Source: Polynucleobacter sp.
GTDB lineage: Bacteria; Pseudomonadota; Gammaproteobacteria; Burkholderiales; Burkholderiaceae
NCBI GenBank assembly: GCA_016462905.1
Contig: JAEMSI010000003.1
Coordinates: forward strand, 1,529 to 34,344
Length of the DNA: 32,816 bases
Direction: 5' to 3'
The first letter of the stretch is position 1, and every line of letters begins with the position of its first letter. The notes beneath the pieces are model-generated. The model was not told the origin of the DNA. It ran no database searches and was given only the letters and a program-made list of their open reading frames with translations. The position numbers were made by a program, and so were the translations under genes. Of the stretch, positions 196 through 14,080 are shown in pieces.

Positions 196-1878
196 TTAGG
201 CTTGCACTTCTAAATTACCACTTGCCCGAGTGCTGCACGAATAGACAAACCCTGCGGCTTTCGATTTCGCATCGATAGTACATTCACTATCGATCTTTAC
301 CTCACCAGCGCATTTCATTTCGCATTCGCCGCAACTGCCTACACGACAGCTGTAATCGATTTGAATACCGTGTGCTTCTGCTAACTCGAGCAGAGTGATA
401 TTTTCATCGGTCTGTACCGTGATTCCAGAACGCACAAACTTAATTTCATGGGTTGGTCCACTCAGCTCCAAGGCTTTGGTGAGACCACCAGAACCGTGTG
501 CGACGCGACCCGAATCGAAACTTTCGGTATGCAGTCGCGAAAGATCGAATTCTAATTCTTGCAGAGTTTGTCGCACCGCCTCAAAAAAAGGTTTGGGACC
601 ACAGATAAAGACATCGCGTTCATCGAGATCGGGGGCAAATTTGCGCAGCATATCGGGGCCAACTCGGCCACGCAGTCCATCCCATGCGTTGGGGTCAGGT
701 AAATCGGCTGTGAGTGTGACTGCAACATGAAAACGTTGACTGCGGCTAGCGAGGTGTTCAAGTTCCTTGCGAAAGATGATGTCCTCGGGTGATTTGAAGG
801 AGGCCAACAATTTGACATGAACATCAGCGCTGGTGTCGCTAATCCATCGGCTCATGGAAAGGATCGGGGTGATACCACTGCCTGCTCCGATGAATAGCAT
901 CTTGCTACTGGGGTATTCAAAGCAACTGAATTTTCCAGAAGGACCTTTAATTGTCAGACGTTGTCCTAGTTTGACTTGATCACAAAACCAATTTGAGACC
1001 AAGCCACCAGGGACGCGCTTAATCGTCACATCGAGCAGATGAGGTCGCGATGGGCTTGATGACATGCTATAGGAGCGTTTAACCTGCTTGCCATCAATCT
1101 CGAGAATAAACGTTATAAATTGACCAGGACGATAGGAAAAGAGTAGGGGCTCTTCGCCTGCGAAACGAAAGGTTTTGGTATCGGGGGTTTCATCGAGGAT
1201 ATCGACCACCTTAACGATGGTTTGCCCCTCGCTCCAGAGGCTGATTGTCGAGCGGTTGTCAATTAGGTTAGCCAAGACCGGGCTAGCTGGAGGAATCGGC
1301 GGTGTGTAGAAGAAGCGCGGAATCTCGGCGATCTCTTCGAGTGCCATGCCCTCGAGTGTTTCGGGTTTGGTCGCCTCGCTTAATACGAACTCGAGTCGAT
1401 AGCCTGGTAGATCGATAAACGCTCCGTTCCATAAAGGAATTGGCGCTTGCGTGCCTACTTTTTTGCGATCGAGTAAGACGCCAACCTCATCATCGAGCGA
1501 GCGCATATAAAGCTTGCCACCCGACTTAACTAGGGCCAGATGGTACATGCCCATTTTGTTCGATTCGAGTTGCAAATCGGTATTGGGGTGTCGTCCCACC
1601 AAAGTTTCGGTATTGAGTCGATCTAGGGCAATTTCATGAATTGCTAAACCGTTTTGCATGACGATGATTTTGTCGCAGGGATCACGATCGAGTGGCACAC
1701 CTGCAAAGAGGCATTTCATCCAGTACTCGGCCTGTATTTTGGCAGAAATAGTTTGCGGCTCAGTGAGATCTTGCTTGCGCCGCTTTCGGCTAGACTTAGC
1801 GTGGCGCTCAGGAAAAAAAGTTTCTCCCCAAAACTTATTCTCCTCAATGATAGAGTGGTCTAAGGGATTTGTTTCCAT
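196..1878 (-). CDS. FHA domain / FAD-NAD oxidoreductase / 2Fe-2S ferredoxin fusion protein
   Basis: A 560-residue cytoplasmic electron-transfer protein. In order: an N-terminal basic region; an FHA-like beta domain (about 93-165, GRHP at 95-98, His113); a ferredoxin-reductase FAD barrel (about 215-325, flavin motif RSYS at 268-271); an NAD(P)-binding lobe (GAGSGITP 331-338, CGP 426-428); and a C-terminal plant-type [2Fe-2S] domain with Cys511, 516, 519 and 548 (C-x4-C-x2-C-x28-C). It should take hydride from NAD(P)H and pass single electrons through FAD and the cluster. The likely acceptor is the product of the gene 26 bases upstream, the flavin-barrel/haemoglobin fusion, since both read leftward as one unit. 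The frame also opens at TTG 1884, but ATG at 1878 is the natural start. The FHA domain lacks the usual phosphothreonine-contacting Ser (Gly110 there). Domain identities are firm; the electron acceptor is inferred. Confidence 0.85.
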   Translation of the reverse strand: METNPLDHSIIEENKFWGETFFPERHAKSSRKRRKQDLTEPQTISAKIQAEYWMKCLFAGVPLDRDPCDKIIVMQNGLAIHEIALDRLNTETLVGRHPNTDLQLESNKMGMYHLALVKSGGKLYMRSLDDEVGVLLDRKKVGTQAPIPLWNGAFIDLPGYRLEFVLSEATKPETLEGMALEEIAEIPRFFYTPPIPPASPVLANLIDNRSTISLWSEGQTIVKVVDILDETPDTKTFRFAGEEPLLFSYRPGQFITFILEIDGKQVKRSYSMSSSPSRPHLLDVTIKRVPGGLVSNWFCDQVKLGQRLTIKGPSGKFSCFEYPSSKMLFIGAGSGITPILSMSRWISDTSADVHVKLLASFKSPEDIIFRKELEHLASRSQRFHVAVTLTADLPDPNAWDGLRGRVGPDMLRKFAPDLDERDVFICGPKPFFEAVRQTLQELEFDLSRLHTESFDSGRVAHGSGGLTKALELSGPTHEIKFVRSGITVQTDENITLLELAEAHGIQIDYSCRVGSCGECEMKCAGEVKIDSECTIDAKSKAAGFVYSCSTRASGNLEVQA

Positions 1879-1904
1879 AATCAATCTAGATTGGGTCTGA
1901 TGAG

Positions 1905-2924
1905 TTAGAGACCTAAGACATCGTCACGCGAACTTTCTAAAACCGCCAACATGCCTTCTCGTTCTTTTTCGGAGATGCTTAATTCTTGTAGGGTATCGGA
2001 AAAGAGTTGCATAACGCGGTCGAAATGCTCTTGCCTTAGCCCTAATTTTTCGACTAAGTGACTATGCGCCAAACGCAAGTCTTGACTACTGGAATGTTCG
2101 GGACCACCAAAAGCCATGGTTAGGAATTTTTTCTGTTTGGTGCGCTGGCCCGCCATATCGACATCTGCGAAGAACCGGCCAACGAGCTCATCGGCTTGTA
2201 CCTTGCGGTAGAAGAGATCAACTGCAATCTCCATCGCGGTATCGCCACCGACTCGGTCGTATAAAGGTAAATCTTGCAGCTGGAAATAATCGCCACCTTT
2301 CAGTGCGACGCTATCGGTTCCCCATTCGATCACCTTGTCTGCTTTTGATAACAAAGGAATATGCTTGGAACACTGAATGTAGGCCTCCTCAACTTCGACC
2401 ATAACCCAGCGCTCGGGCTGCTTCTTACCTTCTTGTTTGATGTCGTCGAGCACACTTTGGGGCAGTTTGTCGGCGAATGTCAGCATTTCATCGTTCTCGA
2501 TGACGCGTGCTCGTCCGTTAATGTGTAAACCCACGGTATCGCGGGTGAAATCGATAATCAGCATGGCGATGTGCGGGTTCTCGCTGAGATTGCCCGAATT
2601 GGCATAGACACCGTTACCGCGCAATTCTGGGTAGAGGACATACTTATTACCCAGCACACGAATGAAGCCAGGTTTGCCAAACTTGGAGGTGTTATCGCAT
2701 TCGCCATGTCGATCGGCGGTGGCCACAAACATAAATTCTTGACGGCCGATGAATTCGATCATCTTGGGTGCCAGATAATCGAGCATCTGCTTTTCGTAAA
2801 AGGTGATCGCCCGCTCTCGGGTATCGTATTTTTCTTGAAGCTTATGTTCGCCGTCCGAGCCTTGTAAAAGGGTGGGCGCCCTCAATTCCTCGGGACTGGT
2901 AGTGTCGACCGAACTCTGTTCCAT
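1905..2924 (-). CDS. PNPOx-like flavin split-barrel fused to group I truncated haemoglobin
   Basis: A 339-residue, two-domain cytoplasmic protein. Residues about 40-205 form a pyridoxamine-phosphate-oxidase-like split barrel (FMFVATADRHGECDNTSK, then GLHINGRARVI), a fold that usually binds FMN and sometimes haem or F420. Residues about 220-338 form a complete truncated haemoglobin of group I type: LYDRVGG at 221-227, LFYRKVQAD with the B10-type Tyr239, Gln264 in KQKKFL, the GGP turn at 273-275, proximal-type His287, EHFD at 299-302 and the group's usual ending SSRDDVLG. Such globins bind O2 or NO and typically act as NO dioxygenases or peroxidase-like proteins. It is first in a two-gene unit with the FHA/FAD/2Fe-2S reductase. 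The start is ATG with GGAA about eight bases upstream. The domain calls are strong; an NO- or oxygen-related role is inferred. Confidence 0.85.
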   Translation of the reverse strand: MEQSSVDTTSPEELRAPTLLQGSDGEHKLQEKYDTRERAITFYEKQMLDYLAPKMIEFIGRQEFMFVATADRHGECDNTSKFGKPGFIRVLGNKYVLYPELRGNGVYANSGNLSENPHIAMLIIDFTRDTVGLHINGRARVIENDEMLTFADKLPQSVLDDIKQEGKKQPERWVMVEVEEAYIQCSKHIPLLSKADKVIEWGTDSVALKGGDYFQLQDLPLYDRVGGDTAMEIAVDLFYRKVQADELVGRFFADVDMAGQRTKQKKFLTMAFGGPEHSSSQDLRLAHSHLVEKLGLRQEHFDRVMQLFSDTLQELSISEKEREGMLAVLESSRDDVLGL

Positions 2925-3055: not shown

Positions 3056-3131
3056 TGGCTCCCCGACCTGGACTCGAACCAGGGACCTGCGGATTAACAG
3101 TCCGTCGCTCTACCGACTGAGCTATCAGGGA
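3056..3131 (-). tRNA. tRNA-Asn (anticodon GTT)
   Basis: A 76-base cloverleaf on the minus strand. The acceptor arm TCCCTGA pairs with TCGGGGA (one T-G pair), with discriminator G and an encoded CCA. The D-arm lies in AGCTCAGTCGGTAGAGC. The anticodon stem-loop GACGGACTGTTAATCCGC carries GTT, which reads AAC/AAT. The T-arm is CCTGG-TTCGAGT-CCAGG. All arms fold without gaps. It is a single-gene unit with its own -10 box upstream and terminator downstream. Confidence 0.96.
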
Positions 3132-9413: not shown

Positions 9414-10247
9414 TCAATGGCTATGGCGCAAAATAAAATCGGCTGTGACCATCGCGGCATCATTCGTGAACTCATCGGCCAAAATTCGTGCCGCCGCTTC
9501 GGCAAAATCGATTTCGATAAAGCCACTGACTTCGCCATCGTGATTTTTTGGGACTATATTTTCAGGTAACTGCAGATCAAACATAAAGAGGTTTTCATGA
9601 TGAAAACCGTGAGGCAGATTGGGGCGTTTAATTAACAGCTTTCCTTGCGGTTGAATGTACTGCGCAATGTGTTCGGGAATACCAGCTTCTTCCCATAGTT
9701 CACGAATCGCATTTTGACGGACGGTTTCACCAGCGGTGACACCGCCGGCTGCTAGATTGTCGAGTAAACCCGGATCGATCCCTTTGATTTCGCTGCGGCG
9801 CCCCACCCAAATCTTTCCAGAACGGGTATAGCCATTGATGTGAGCGGCGCGACTGCAAAAACCAAAGGTTCGAAAGGCGGCACGCTCAATACGAAAGTAT
9901 TCGTGATCATCTTTGCCATACCAAGCAAATTCTTCCTTACGCCAAGTGGGAATTAAACCCACTTCGTGTAAATGCTGGGCCAGTTGGCGCAAATCTTGAC
10001 TTAATTCGTAAGGGGTTTGATTGAGTAATACCAAACGGTCTGAATGAAATTGAATTTGCGGTAGTGGCTTATTTTTTAAATAGGCTTGGATGGGCGAAAT
10101 AAAATGGTGATGCAAATGCCCAACCACTTCATGATCAAAATAAATTGGCAATAAATCACTGGGAATATGACGCGCCGCATTTTGCAACATCTCCTCTAAA
10201 GCAGCTAAGGTCGATGCGCTTAAATGGAATGCGGTGGATTTGCTCAT
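9414..10247 (-). CDS. DUF4743-type Nudix hydrolase, probable thiamine-damage enzyme
   Basis: A 277-residue protein with an N-terminal domain (about 10-125) of the type found ahead of Nudix in fungal and plant thiamine-linked proteins, then a Nudix domain. The Nudix box is perfect: G-x5-E-x7-REUxEExGU at 168-190 (GGVTAGE ... RELWEEAGI). FRTFGFCSRAAHINGY and KIWVGRRS match the same family. Eukaryotic relatives (yeast Tnr3/YJR142W, plant NUDT20/24) hydrolyse damaged forms of thiamine diphosphate. Here the gene lies directly upstream of the riboswitch-controlled thi operon on the same strand, which supports that role by context. Its 3' end is about 80 bases before the riboswitch, which must therefore contain the operon promoter. 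No good Shine-Dalgarno precedes the ATG. The family is certain; the substrate is inferred. Confidence 0.88.
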   Translation of the reverse strand: MSKSTAFHLSASTLAALEEMLQNAARHIPSDLLPIYFDHEVVGHLHHHFISPIQAYLKNKPLPQIQFHSDRLVLLNQTPYELSQDLRQLAQHLHEVGLIPTWRKEEFAWYGKDDHEYFRIERAAFRTFGFCSRAAHINGYTRSGKIWVGRRSEIKGIDPGLLDNLAAGGVTAGETVRQNAIRELWEEAGIPEHIAQYIQPQGKLLIKRPNLPHGFHHENLFMFDLQLPENIVPKNHDGEVSGFIEIDFAEAAARILADEFTNDAAMVTADFILRHSH

Positions 10248-10309
10248 GTTCTTTTTTTTGTCAATGTCAAGGGCTTTTTCTATTTTGCAACATTATTTTT
10301 TTATTGAGG

Positions 10310-10332
10310 GGATGCTTAATTTTTAAGCATCC
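10310..10332. repeat. perfect inverted repeat (hairpin)
   Basis: Ten-base arms GGATGCTTAA and TTAAGCATCC flank a three-base loop TTT. No T-run follows on either strand, so it is not a standard intrinsic terminator. It lies in the 245-base gap between the Nudix gene and tRNA-Arg, 46 bases from the DnaA-box pair. Upstream of it the plus strand has a T-rich stretch. Confidence 0.6.
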
Positions 10333-10378
10333 TAGCTCAGTCTATACGGAATAAATACTTAGCGAACTATTTTTTCAC

Positions 10379-10401
10379 TTATCCACATTCTCTGTGGATA
10401 A
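10379..10401. promoter_or_regulatory. two consensus DnaA boxes in inverted orientation
   Basis: TTATCCACA (10379-10387) and TGTGGATAA (10393-10401) are both exact matches to the DnaA-box consensus. They face each other across five bases (TTCTC), forming a perfect 9-bp inverted repeat. The gap is A/T-rich and contains no gene. Such a pair could bind DnaA or simply form a hairpin in RNA. No dnaA, dnaN or gyrB gene is in the window and no box cluster is visible, so this is not an obvious origin. Confidence 0.5.
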
Positions 10402-10492
10402 CTCCGAGTTTTCGTCAGCGACGATCACTTCATTAGGGATAGAGGTATGACTTGAAAAAGAATCAGTAAATCAGGCCTAAGTAATTGATTGA

Positions 10493-10567
10493 TGGTCCCC
10501 CTGCCAGGAGTCGAACCTGGATCTATCGCTTAGGAGGCGATTGCACTATCCATTGTGCTACAGCGGG
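10493..10567 (-). tRNA. tRNA-Arg (anticodon CCT)
   Basis: A 75-base cloverleaf on the minus strand: D-stem GCAC/GTGC, anticodon stem ATCGC/GCGAT with loop CTCCTAA (anticodon CCT, reads AGG), T-arm CCAGG-TTCGACT-CCTGG, discriminator A and an encoded CCA. The acceptor stem CCCGCTG/CAGGGGG begins with C1-G72 and has a G-G mismatch at the fourth pair. Otherwise the fold is complete. The 5' end is six bases after the stop of a small ORF on the same strand. Confidence 0.9.
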
Positions 10568-10573
10568 ATTGGT

Positions 10574-10735
10574 TTACCAGCCACACAGGGCCCAAGCTTG
10601 ATTGAGTAAGCCTACTACGACTTCGGGAATAAAGTAAAGCGCAAACACTGTCAACAAAATTAGCAGCGCCACGCAATAGCTTAGGCGGATTTTCCATGAG
10701 GCGATGGGCTTGGTGGTGGGTTGATTGAGTGGCAT
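10574..10735 (-). CDS. small putative membrane protein (53 aa)
   Basis: ATG to TAA, 53 codons. A polar, basic N-terminus (MPLNQPTTKPIASWKIRLSY) is followed by a hydrophobic span of about 25 residues (CVALLILLTVFALYFIPEVV) and a Trp/Cys-rich end (WALCGW). I recognise no family. It begins 20 bases after the MFS transporter stop on the same strand and ends six bases before tRNA-Arg. It could be a short accessory peptide of the transporter unit. No good ribosome-binding site precedes the ATG. Position and composition favour a real gene, but conservation has not been tested. Confidence 0.4.
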   Translation of the reverse strand: MPLNQPTTKPIASWKIRLSYCVALLILLTVFALYFIPEVVVGLLNQAWALCGW

Positions 10736-10755
10736 CGATATCGTGTATGCCAGCT

Positions 10756-11994
10756 TTAGGCTGTAGCGGGGCGTTGTAGGGGTTTTTCTTGGATCGGTAA
10801 ATTAATCACGCAGGCAAAGACACCAAGGGCAATCGCAATATTCCAAACGATTTGATACGAGCCCGTGAGATCAAATAAATAGCCGCCAAAATAGACCCCA
10901 CAAAAACTGCCCACCTGATGCGATAAGAATACAAATCCCGATAACATCGTGAGGTATTTGACGCCAAAGATTTGCGCCACAATCGCGTTGGTGAGGGGAA
11001 TGGTCGATAACCACAATACGCCCATCACTGCGGCAAAAATATAGACGCTGATGGTAGTAATGGGCAGTAATAAGAAAATCGTAATCGCCACCGAGCGGGT
11101 GAGATAAATTCCAGACAGTAAGTAGCGCTTGGGAATTTTTTGACCGAGAATACCTGCATAGTAGGTGCCGAGGACATTAAATAATCCAATTAAGGCTAAT
11201 GCCGTGGTAGCGACATGCGCGCCACCTGCCTCAGGATAGATGCGCGACATATCTTTTAAATAGGGAGCAAGGTGAACCCCAATAAAGACAACCTGAAAAC
11301 CACAAACAAAATAACCTAAGGTTAAATATAAAAAATTACGGTTTTGAATCGCTTCTTTTAAAGCTTCGGCGATCGATTGATTACCAAATTGATTGCTGCC
11401 ACCTTGAAAATTTTTCTCCCGCAACATAAAGGCAACCGGCACCATCATCGAAGCAAACAAAGCCAAAATTAAGAGAGCGTCTTGATAACCAAAGCCTAAG
11501 AGCAAACCTTGCTCTAAGGGCATCATCAGGAACTGACCAAAGGAGCCAGCCGCTGCCGTAATGCCCATCGCCCAGACGCGTTTTTCAGCACTGACGTTGC
11601 GTCCCAGAATGCCGTAGATGGTGCTGTAGGTGGTGGTGGCTAAACCAAAGCCAATCAAAAGACCGCCGGCAATGCCAAATTCGACCTTACTGCTGGTAAG
11701 TGCCATGCCCGCTAAGCCAAGGGCATAGGCGAGACCGCCCACCACCATCATCTTAAACGGACCAAAGCGATCGGCTAATGCGCCAGTGATGGGTTGCAAG
11801 ACCCCCCAGATGAGGTTTTGCAAGGCAATCGCTAGGGCAAAGGTCTCGCGTCCCCAACCATGGGTTGAGGTAATGGGCAAATTAAATAAGCCAAAGCCAT
11901 GACGAATACCCATCGAAAGGGTGACCATCAGACTGCCAAAGATTAAGACCTGAGCCATCGACAGTGAGTGGTTTTGCCCTTGGGGTGCATTCAT
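10756..11994 (-). CDS. MFS transporter (12-span, monocarboxylate/oxalate-formate type)
   Basis: An inner-membrane secondary transporter of about 412 residues with some twelve hydrophobic spans. The signature loop between helices 2 and 3 reads ALADRFGPFKM, and the two halves are separated by a charged loop with LREKNFQGG. The region GIRHGFGLFNLPIT and the overall pattern resemble MFS carriers for small carboxylates, but the substrate cannot be read from sequence. The frame is open back to 12093, which would overlap parE by 14 bases. ATG 11994 (MNAPQGQNHS), with AGG upstream and hydrophobic sequence soon after, is the better start. It is divergent from parE across 85 bases. Confidence 0.85.
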   Translation of the reverse strand: MNAPQGQNHSLSMAQVLIFGSLMVTLSMGIRHGFGLFNLPITSTHGWGRETFALAIALQNLIWGVLQPITGALADRFGPFKMMVVGGLAYALGLAGMALTSSKVEFGIAGGLLIGFGLATTTYSTIYGILGRNVSAEKRVWAMGITAAAGSFGQFLMMPLEQGLLLGFGYQDALLILALFASMMVPVAFMLREKNFQGGSNQFGNQSIAEALKEAIQNRNFLYLTLGYFVCGFQVVFIGVHLAPYLKDMSRIYPEAGGAHVATTALALIGLFNVLGTYYAGILGQKIPKRYLLSGIYLTRSVAITIFLLLPITTISVYIFAAVMGVLWLSTIPLTNAIVAQIFGVKYLTMLSGFVFLSHQVGSFCGVYFGGYLFDLTGSYQIVWNIAIALGVFACVINLPIQEKPLQRPATA

Positions 11995-12034
11995 AAAGCC
12001 TAGTTTAACTGCGACCTCAAAATGAGGGATTTTG

Positions 12035-12040
12035 TATAAA
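12035..12040 (+). promoter_or_regulatory. candidate -10 box for parE-parC
   Basis: TATAAA lies 39 bases before the parE ATG in the divergent gap with the MFS gene. No convincing -35 hexamer stands at the usual 16-18 bases upstream (GCGACC is the best). It is offered as the likeliest promoter element, on position and composition only. Confidence 0.3.
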
Positions 12041-12079
12041 TCGTGACTAGCCCCGCTGACATGACTACAATTTCTCCGC

Positions 12080-14080
12080 ATGGCGCTGAACAAACCTTCT
12101 AAAAAATCCGCTCAATACAGTGAATCGTCGATTCAGGTTCTTAAGGGCTTAGAGCCGGTTAAGCAACGCCCTGGGATGTATACCCGAACCGATAATCCCC
12201 TGCATATTATTCAGGAGGTTCTCGATAACGCTTCGGATGAGGCCTTGGGTGGTTACGGCAAACAAATTAATGTGACCCTGCATACCGATGGCAGTGTGAG
12301 CGTGGAAGACGATGGCCGCGGTATTCCCGTGGGTATGCATCCGCAAGAAAAATTACCCGTGGTTGAAATTGTATTTACGCAATTGCACGCGGGCGGCAAA
12401 TTTGAAAAGGGCGCAGGTGGTGCATATGCTTTTTCTGGTGGCTTGCACGGCGTGGGTGTTTCCGTTACCAACGCCTTATCCAAACGTCTTGAAGTGAGCG
12501 TCTGGCGTGAAGGGCAATTTTCGACCTTAGCGTTTGCGGATGGTTTGGTGATCGAGAAATTAAAAACCAAAGCGGCTGCAAAGGGAGATAAATCGCATGG
12601 TACGCGCGTACGCGCTTGGCCTAATCCCAAATACTTTGATAGCCCGACGATTCCGTTAGTTGATTTACAGCGCCTGTTACGTTCTAAAGCGGTTTTATTG
12701 CCTGGCGTGAAAGTGACTCTCACGCAAGAAAAAAATGGCGATACCCAAACTTGGCAATACGCTCAGGGCTTACGCGGTTATCTCGATGAAGCGATGGCGC
12801 AGGCGGGGCATAGCCCACTGGTGATCCCTGCTTTTGAGGGTGAACATTTTGCGGCAGGTTTAGCTGAAGACGAAGGCTTTGCGGAAGGCGAAGGCGCCTC
12901 TTGGGTGGTGGCGTGGACCGAAGAGGGTGCGCCCGTGCGCGAAAGTTATGTGAATTTAATTCCAACCCCCGCAGGCGGTACGCACGAAAGCGGTTTGCGC
13001 GAAGGTTTATTTAATGCGGTGAAAAGTTTTGTTGAGATTCATGCCTTACAACCCAAAGGCGTAAAACTGATGCCTGAAGATGTGTTCGCGCGCGCGTCTT
13101 TTATTTTGTCGGCTAAAGTCTTAGATCCGCAATTTCAAGGGCAAATTAAAGAGCGTTTAAATTCGCGCGATGCGGTTCGCTTAGTGTCGGGCTTTGTAAA
13201 GTCAGCCTTAGAGCTTTGGTTAAACCAGCACGTTGACTATGGTCGCGCTTTAGCCGATCTAGTGATTAAACAAGCGCAAGCGAGAACTCGCGCTGGACAA
13301 AAAGTAGAGAAACGAAAATCGTCTGGGGTGGCGGTCTTACCAGGCAAGCTCACCGATTGCGAAAGCCAAGATATTAGCCTCAATGAAATCTTTTTAGTCG
13401 AGGGCGATTCGGCGGGCGGTTCAGCCAAGATGGGGCGCAATAAGGAATTTCAGGCGATTTTGCCTTTACGCGGCAAAGTACTCAATACGTGGGAGACTGA
13501 GCGCGATCGCTTATTTGCCAATAACGAAGTGCACGATATTGCGGTGGCGATTGGGGTTGATCCACACGGACTCAACGATGAACCCGACTTAAGTAATTTA
13601 CGTTACGGCAAGATTTGCATTTTGTCGGACGCCGATGTCGATGGTTCGCACATTCAAGTATTACTCTTAACTTTATTCTTTAAACATTTTCCGAAGCTGA
13701 TCGATTTAGGCCATGTGTGTATTGCTAGGCCACCGCTTTTTCGAGTCGACGCACCTGCGCGCGGTAAAAAACCAGCGCAAAAGATTTATGCCTTAGACGC
13801 GAATGAGTTGCAAGCGATTGAAGATAAGTTACGCAAAGACGGAGTGCGCGATGGTGCTTGGCAAATCTCCCGCTTTAAGGGCTTGGGCGAAATGAGTGCT
13901 GAGCAATTATGGGATACGACTTTAAATCCCGATACCCGCCGTTTATTGCCAGTACTATTAGGTGAACTTTCGGAGGCCGATACTTCAAAGACCATGGATA
14001 TGCTGATGGGTAAATCGGAATCGGGTGCGCGACGCGATTGGCTTGAAGAGCGTGGTAATGAAGTTGAAGCCGATATATGA
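12080..14080 (+). CDS. parE: DNA topoisomerase IV subunit B ParE
   Basis: The ATPase/TOPRIM subunit of topoisomerase IV, which decatenates daughter chromosomes together with ParC. It has 666 residues. The GHKL ATPase shows [10 protein letters not shown] (Glu46, Asn50), DDGRGIP (77-83) and [15 protein letters not shown] (120-134). The TOPRIM metal site shows EGDSAGG (from Glu441) and DADVDG (Asp517, 519, 521), with PLRGKVLN between. The C-terminus has the family motif RFKGLGEM. The length fits ParE, not GyrB, which usually carries a longer TOPRIM insertion. Its TGA overlaps the parC ATG by four bases (ATGA), so the two subunits are translationally coupled. Confidence 0.96.

Follow-up and report, generated by a model that had tools for sequence, protein, structure and literature searches.

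Domain Organization of the Two-Gene Locus

The DNA analysed here is a stretch of 32,816 nucleotides from a Polynucleobacter sp. genome (contig JAEMSI010000003.1), called the window throughout, and its first 3 kb carry a pair of adjacent genes on the reverse strand whose recurrence and probable function are described below (Table 1). The upstream gene encodes a flavin barrel of the PNPOx/PPOX type fused to a group I truncated haemoglobin, and the downstream gene encodes a reductase with the domain order FHA-FAD-NAD-[2Fe-2S]. An original prediction made from the sequence had proposed both fusions and a gap of 26 bases between the genes, and this composition is upheld: all six Pfam domain calls in the pair exceed their cut-offs, the FHA call being the weakest of the six, and an in-frame ATG (1876-1878) two codons past the TTG at 1884 is the likely start of the downstream gene, 26 bases after the upstream stop.

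Table 1. Coordinates of the gene pair, its domains and key codons, and the adjoining tRNA gene in the window
Feature	Position	Strand	Basis
Upstream gene, PNPOx/PPOX-type flavin barrel + group I truncated haemoglobin, 339 aa	1905..2924	(-)	
PNPOx_N barrel, residues 53-185	2370..2768	(-)	Pfam, E 2.9e-12, over cut-off
Bac_globin domain, residues 221-335	1920..2264	(-)	Pfam, E 8.7e-17, 61.9 bits vs cut-off 21
Tyr B10 codon, residue 239	2208..2210	(-)	Alignment
Lys E10 codon, residue 263; aligns with a THB1 Lys	2136..2138	(-)	Alignment
Proximal haem His F8 codon, residue 287	2064..2066	(-)	Alignment
Downstream gene, FHA-FAD-NAD-[2Fe-2S] reductase, 562 aa from TTG 1884	196..1884	(-)	
FHA domain, residues 95-159	1408..1602	(-)	Pfam, 24.6 bits vs cut-off 20.7
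FAD_binding_6, residues 226-319	928..1209	(-)	Pfam
NAD_binding_1, residues 331-438	571..894	(-)	Pfam
Fer2 [2Fe-2S] ferredoxin domain, residues 486-554; all four ligand Cys present	223..429	(-)	Pfam and alignment
tRNA-Asn, adjoins module; not a component of the system	3056..3131	(-)	

Recurrence of the Fusion and Its Adjacent Reductase

Relatives were collected by a barrel-alignment scan of 84,980 species genomes, the results of which rest on the best 80 of 212 relatives, and by searches of genomes sampled from the window's order (398), from the Methylolobus order (251) and from Bradyrhizobium (242), each sample being a draw from a larger group. Among the best 80, barrel–globin fusions were found in Methylobacter (L056), Methylomicrobium (L057), Methylolobus (L060) and Methylotetracoccus (L061), in two metagenome-assembled genomes (MAGs) of Methylococcaceae (L065 and L066), in four Bradyrhizobium (L058, L059, L062 and L063) and in a Burkholderiales MAG (two pieces, L064 and L067). 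In the Methylolobus order, whose loci are called methanotrophs here after its named members, 28 of the 251 sampled genomes match at 1e-40 or better and 26 have both domains readable; six of these 26 loci come from genomes also present in the barrel scan, and each is counted once. The two other matches were excluded from the adjacency count: the barrel of L171 is spread over two frames and the fetched stretch gave no match to the reductase, and in L170 the start of the barrel is followed immediately by the end of a ferredoxin domain, which reflects either an assembly artefact or a deletion that runs through both genes. The Bradyrhizobium sample yielded the fusion in 5 of 242 genomes.

An FAD/NAD reductase lies directly adjacent to the fusion, on the same strand, in all 26 readable methanotroph loci (L144-L169), downstream of it in L144-L160 and upstream in L161-L169, and an FHA-reductase lies directly downstream in all five Bradyrhizobium loci and in the Burkholderiales MAG (L067). 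The two-gene redox system of the original prediction is therefore borne out, and the check on whether the two genes are rarely together elsewhere found them side by side in each of these three groups. Since both domain orders recur in adjacent genes in methanotrophs, Bradyrhizobium and the Burkholderiales MAG, the pairing is not a matter of chance; a functional pairing of fusion and reductase can be held with high confidence, and the downstream protein is very probably the fusion's own NADH-driven electron donor. The distances between barrels and those between reductases are correlated (Mantel r 0.84 over 28 pairs, a value reached by 0 of 9,999 permutations), which fits co-inheritance and is equally expected from plain common descent. 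In five methanotroph loci (L146, L155, L157, L158 and L160) a second, smaller reductase stands between the fusion and the main reductase, and the one small reductase scanned, in L188, has the order [2Fe-2S]-FAD-NAD. In L185, two genes with multicopper-oxidase or copper-binding matches (9952-12278) lie immediately upstream of the module.

Globin Domain and Haem Pocket

The Bac_globin match above its cut-off, together with His287 at F8 and Tyr239 at B10, places the globin of the window among the group I truncated haemoglobins. Its nearest solved relatives are cyanoglobins and THB1 of Chlamydomonas (E 5e-24), to which it aligns gap-free across the haem pocket. The distal Lys of THB1 is one that we take to be at E10, and the alignment of the window agrees. 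In the clade of the window (the window, L067 and L144-L160), all 19 members have Tyr B10, Lys E10, Gln E11 and His F8, and 17 of them keep Gln E7.

Outside this clade the proximal site is not maintained. In all five Bradyrhizobium proteins F8 is lost through a seven-residue deletion and Tyr B10 is replaced by His, and in nine methanotroph relatives F8 is Tyr (eight members, L162-L169) or Leu (L161). Pfam still recognises the globin in the two His-less members scanned, with 45.3 bits in L172 and 22.1 bits in L163 (cut-off 21). The globin that remains in the Bradyrhizobium fusions (L172-L176; L058, L059, L062 and L063) is about 51-54% identical to that of the window, with the F-helix stretch gone.

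Flavin Barrel

The nearest NCBIfam model of the window's barrel is TIGR04025, the MSMEG_1061 family of FMN (flavin mononucleotide)-dependent PPOX flavoproteins, against which it scores 75.3 bits, below the cut-off of 170; four relatives score 85.5 to 106.1 bits, likewise under that cut-off. Across 25 sequences from several phyla, 47 barrel positions are invariant, with no decay like that of the haem site. The barrel is the constant partner of the module. Among solved structures, the top match of the barrel profile is HupZ, at a marginal E of 0.0033 and with about half of the profile covered; Anf3, a PNPOx-fold protein considered below, is absent from the three PDB matches obtained up to E 10. 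The vitamin B6 enzyme PdxH consists of an N-terminal barrel followed by a PNPOx C-terminal dimerisation domain. A PdxH-like enzyme was ruled out for the window, in whose fusion only PNPOx_N and Bac_globin were found at E 0.01, with no C-terminal domain.

Reductase and FHA-Like Domain

The reductase of the window has the FAD-NAD-[2Fe-2S] domain order of the Hcr and GbcB reductases, and it scores below the cut-offs of both models (200 bits against 383 for Hcr and 323 bits against 500 for GbcB). Its FAD/NAD part reaches 117 bits against the flavohaemoprotein model, for which the family cut-off is 432. The [2Fe-2S] part is present in 29 of 31 aligned reductases, and the remaining two are cut off. 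In a sample of 398 genomes drawn from the larger phylum of the window, 47 match the reductase at 1e-60; among the matches listed, only the window's own covers the FHA part, and the others begin at residue 189 or later.

The original prediction had described the reductase as FHA-gated, a description that is not supported. An FHA domain was detected in 18 of the 26 adjacent methanotroph reductases (including that of L162, via L193) and was not found in eight, namely L159, where the reductase cluster is represented by a smaller protein alone, and L163-L169, whose reductases have no detectable FHA. The phosphothreonine pocket, whose Arg, Ser, His and Asn positions we take from the FHA literature, is also incomplete: the FHA domain of the window keeps Arg and His and has Gly for Ser and Val for Asn, which led to the rejection of a canonical phosphothreonine-binding domain there. 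Among 23 aligned FHA domains, His is present in all and Arg in all except L145; the pocket Ser occurs in four (L157, L158, L160 and L162), with Gly or Ala in the other 19, and the pocket Asn in three (L145, L148 and L150), being replaced in 20. Because none of the 23 keeps both Ser and Asn, the usual phospho-switch is unlikely in this lineage, and the FHA-like domain probably has a structural or docking role. A W-x3-LF motif is conserved in the N-terminus of the reductase, often twice. It is also found in all seven reductases that lack an FHA (L163-L169), which suggests a putative docking role for the motif.

An FHA-FAD-NAD-[2Fe-2S] protein also occurs on a plasmid of Leptolyngbya boryana (L053, 8926-10371), with 34% identity and with the pocket Ser kept. 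A Ser/Thr kinase-WD40 gene is found two genes upstream of it, the adjoining gene encodes a protein with a weak Fer4_5 match, and a lone barrel with 57% identity is found on a different plasmid of the same organism.

Other Unions of Barrel, Globin and Reductase

Barrels of the same subfamily also occur without a fused globin, at 68 loci among the best 80, of which 45 are actinobacterial by title. A frame resembling flavohaemoglobin ends within about 0.6 kb of the barrel in 36 of these 45 loci (in the range L081-L135); of the remaining actinobacterial loci, one (L094) shows just the end of the reductase, at the edge of a contig, and eight have no such frame. These neighbours were found with small profiles built from three of them, and four representatives were checked with Pfam as Globin+FAD+NAD. 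With positions read off the alignment, all 36 neighbour globins have Tyr B10, Gln E7 and His F8, and one representative matches solved flavohaemoglobins at 1e-23. Some of the neighbours carry a long proline-rich N-terminus. A literature search turned up no description of this neighbourhood. No flavohaemoglobin-like neighbour was found at the 23 other, non-actinobacterial globin-free loci, and inspection of 20 non-actinobacterial barrel loci by eye found no neighbour common to the set, only close kin sharing neighbours.

Two further unions were found. L007 (G028) encodes a single chain of 537 residues with the order PNPOx-FAD-NAD-[2Fe-2S], whose barrel belongs to a different PPOX branch (27% identity to that of the window). 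In some methanotrophs, close to the main pair, a lone truncated haemoglobin adjoins [2Fe-2S] and FAD-NAD modules; these modules form one chain in L188, L189 and L191 and are divided between two genes in L066 (13636-15064). The search for natural fusions called for by the original prediction thus found every pairing of modules joined by fusion or adjacency, the barrel–reductase fusion coming from another PPOX branch. The existence of barrel–globin, globin–reductase and barrel–reductase unions is the strongest argument for a single electron path.

Spread, Descent and Genomic Surroundings

The module was not found in any of 24 sampled genomes of the same genus, nor in the other 398 genomes sampled in the order of the window, where the other listed matches (1e-20) span the globin part only. 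In the barrel tree, the window and the Burkholderiales MAG form a group (99) nested in the methanotroph/Bradyrhizobium set; the tree was built by a quick method with SH-aLRT (Shimodaira–Hasegawa-like approximate likelihood ratio test) support only, and 23 of its 45 inner branches are under 80. This placement and the patchy spread fit a horizontal gain, possibly at a tRNA gene.

The pair is surrounded by the tRNA-Asn gene and thiamine genes, with a gene for a VWA protein beyond the pair. The base composition of the module is not distinguishable from that of the window. The tRNA-Asn/thiD flank differs from that of the window in five of five same-genus genomes fetched (L219-L224); one arrangement is common to three of them and the other two differ again. 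The tRNA-Asn site may be an insertion site. An integrase-like gene lies beside tRNA-Asn in L224, one of the two that differ again.

Nitrate-Assimilation Setting

It has been reported that narK-bjgb-flp-nasC form one unit in B. japonicum, that NasC can make nitric oxide (NO), and that Bjgb and Flp detoxify it (PMC4724949). Genes for NasC, NirB-like proteins or NarK lie near the module in 7 of 27 loci, comprising 3 of 22 methanotroph loci (L180, L182 and L183), 4 of 4 Bradyrhizobium loci (L058, L059, L062 and L063) and 0 of 1 Burkholderiales locus. In L182, L183 and L062 the identification came from NCBIfam and Pfam, elsewhere from sequence clustering; only the NarK of L182 exceeds its model cut-off. 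In L183, the genes for the fusion, the reductase, a NirB-like protein and NasC run in one direction; in the Bradyrhizobium loci, NasC and the NirB-like gene are on the opposite strand from the module. At the genome level, 25 of the 33 genomes with the module have a NasC match at 1e-100, and in 17 the identity is at least 50% (including G513, with internal stops). Nitrate assimilation is thus a recurrent, not universal, setting of the module. No nas genes were found near the pair in the window, and a scan of 18 of the window's 29 frames revealed no recognisable nitrogen-oxide gene. In Bradyrhizobium G725 and G891, the PF00042 match near the NasC of the module is interrupted or partial, as if a Bjgb-like gene were decaying.

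Proposed Mechanism and Alternative Explanations

In the mechanism that we propose, the downstream protein would pass electrons from NAD(P)H to FAD and on to its [2Fe-2S] cluster. The PPOX barrel of the upstream protein, where FMN is expected, would receive them one at a time and relay them to the haem of the fused truncated haemoglobin. The route from NAD(P)H through FAD, [2Fe-2S] and the barrel flavin to haem appears to be the simplest path consistent with the module unions. Where the pocket is intact, as in the window, the haem would most likely convert NO and O2 to nitrate, and if it does so, the reductase would be the native electron source required for NO dioxygenation by a truncated haemoglobin of group I. 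The presence of nitrate-assimilation genes beside the module in 7 of 27 relatives lends support to a role in NO chemistry, and recombinant THB1 is reported to have a distal Lys ligand and NO dioxygenase activity (PMC4304232). On balance, the evidence leans somewhat towards a two-component NADH-driven flavo-haem enzyme, most likely an NO dioxygenase with its native electron donor, and to the same modest degree towards NO dioxygenation as the role of the window's own pair. For this explanation we infer FMN occupancy, the direction of electron flow and NO as the substrate.

Several observations weigh against this explanation. The proximal His F8 is missing in 14 of 32 aligned relatives that still keep barrel and reductase; haem chemistry is hence not the general function of the module, and the view of haem as the obligatory end point of the electron path is weakened. 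In members that have lost haem, electrons must either end at the barrel or go to another acceptor of the system. That the barrel binds FMN is an assumption based on membership of a distant family (75 bits against a cut-off of 170), and the nearest named reductase model belongs to another partner, glycine betaine monooxygenase. As for the nitrate setting, 20 of 27 loci show no nitrate-assimilation neighbour, several contigs being short; the genome of the window and the Burkholderiales MAG are without a NasC match at 1e-100; and four of the five Bradyrhizobium (G423, G831, G725 and G908) keep an uninterrupted PF00042 globin by a second NasC.

A wider interpretation, tentative and held with somewhat less than even confidence, is that the PPOX barrel is a third, so far unrecognised module of globin–reductase chemistry, which in Actinobacteria accompanies a flavohaemoglobin-like protein, in Proteobacteria forms a fusion with a truncated haemoglobin and receives electrons from an FHA-derived [2Fe-2S] reductase, and in some lineages persists together with the reductase after the loss of haem. 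On this view the real site of catalysis, or else an electron gate that the system cannot do without, would be the barrel, and the globin would be replaceable.

The strongest competing explanation, which we regard as rather unlikely, makes the barrel the catalytic centre: relying on flavin or on haem in the barrel, it would reduce O2, NO or a small organic compound, and the globin would be an accessory that serves as haem reservoir, oxygen sensor or scaffold. The strict conservation of the barrel and the retention of the reductase where the haem His is lost would both be expected of such an enzyme, and the ferredoxin domain of the reductase recalls Anf3, which offers a precedent for barrel-centred catalysis: it is a PNPOx-fold flavocytochrome that reduces O2 with ferredoxin electrons (PMC6579470). 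However, the barrel profile gave no sequence link to Anf3, the haem pocket is kept throughout the largest clade (19 of 19), and the actinobacterial barrels adjoin globins that all have Tyr B10, Gln E7 and His F8.

That the pair is an oxygen or redox sensor, in which the globin–barrel protein senses O2 or NO and the FHA-reductase signals its state via phosphorylation partners, is very improbable. FHA is a signalling fold, the Leptolyngbya gene lies close to that of a Ser/Thr kinase, and in L196 the first frame listed upstream of the pair, on the opposite strand, encodes a protein-kinase domain; yet none of the 23 aligned FHA domains keeps both pocket Ser and Asn, L196 is itself among the methanotroph loci whose reductase has no FHA found, and no kinase domain was found among the scanned window genes (18 of 29 frames). 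Less probable still is a role in haem degradation or handling, with a HugZ/HupZ-like split barrel fed by the reductase and haem delivered by the globin: HupZ is the best solved-structure match, but a marginal one, members score far better against the PPOX flavoprotein model, and the small number of neighbouring genes scanned included none recognisable as serving haem uptake. A chance neighbourhood of two unrelated redox genes in one genome, to which the absence of the module from the sampled genus and order had lent some colour, is refuted by the recurrence of the adjacency in three other lineages, and the patchiness fits horizontal transfer.

Significance

The locus is of interest because it offers a candidate electron donor genetically linked to a truncated haemoglobin of group I. 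The link of one PPOX subfamily to two globin families points to an as yet unassigned role for these flavoproteins, and the His-less members are natural controls that separate flavin from haem function. Since the hosts include methanotrophs and nitrate-assimilating rhizobia, NO removal there may bear on methane and nitrogen turnover. Among the papers listed by a literature search, with subscription journals outside it, none was recognised as describing the pair.

Comparison with Known Systems

Among related systems, flavohaemoglobin (Hmp/FHP) is an NO dioxygenase that likewise combines globin, FAD and NAD modules for one redox task. The system of the window differs in having two chains and a 2/2 truncated globin in place of a 3/3 globin, which rules out membership of the flavohaemoglobins, and in adding a flavin barrel, a [2Fe-2S] domain and an FHA-like domain. 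Bjgb and Flp resemble it as a haemoglobin with a separate flavoprotein reductase in a nitrate-assimilation setting, but Bjgb is a single-domain haemoglobin, unlike the fusion of the window (PMC4724949). The Flp-like (NirB-like) neighbours of the module's relatives carry Pyr_redox_2 and Rubredoxin_C and no ferredoxin domain.

THB1 and the cyanoglobins align with the globin of the window at Tyr B10, Lys E10 and His F8; their matched chains are 121 to 135 residues long and globin only, whereas the globin of the window is fused to a barrel and paired with a reductase. The Hcr and GbcB reductases have a domain order equal to the C-terminal two thirds of the window's reductase, which differs from them in its FHA-like N-terminus and in its partner. 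A truncated haemoglobin joined to a flavin-containing reductase is also found in the raphidophyte nitrate reductase NR2-2/2HbN, in which an inserted 2/2 haemoglobin has been proposed to couple NO dioxygenation to nitrate use. Unlike the system of the window, NR2-2/2HbN is presumably one eukaryotic nitrate reductase chain, without PPOX barrel or FHA. Anf3, in turn, is similar in having a PNPOx-type barrel within an O2-linked redox protein that takes ferredoxin electrons and differs in that both FAD and haem are in the barrel and there is no globin (PMC6579470). The pair can be seen as a haemoglobin with a dedicated reductase, a known kind of system that here draws on a different globin class and gains a flavin barrel.

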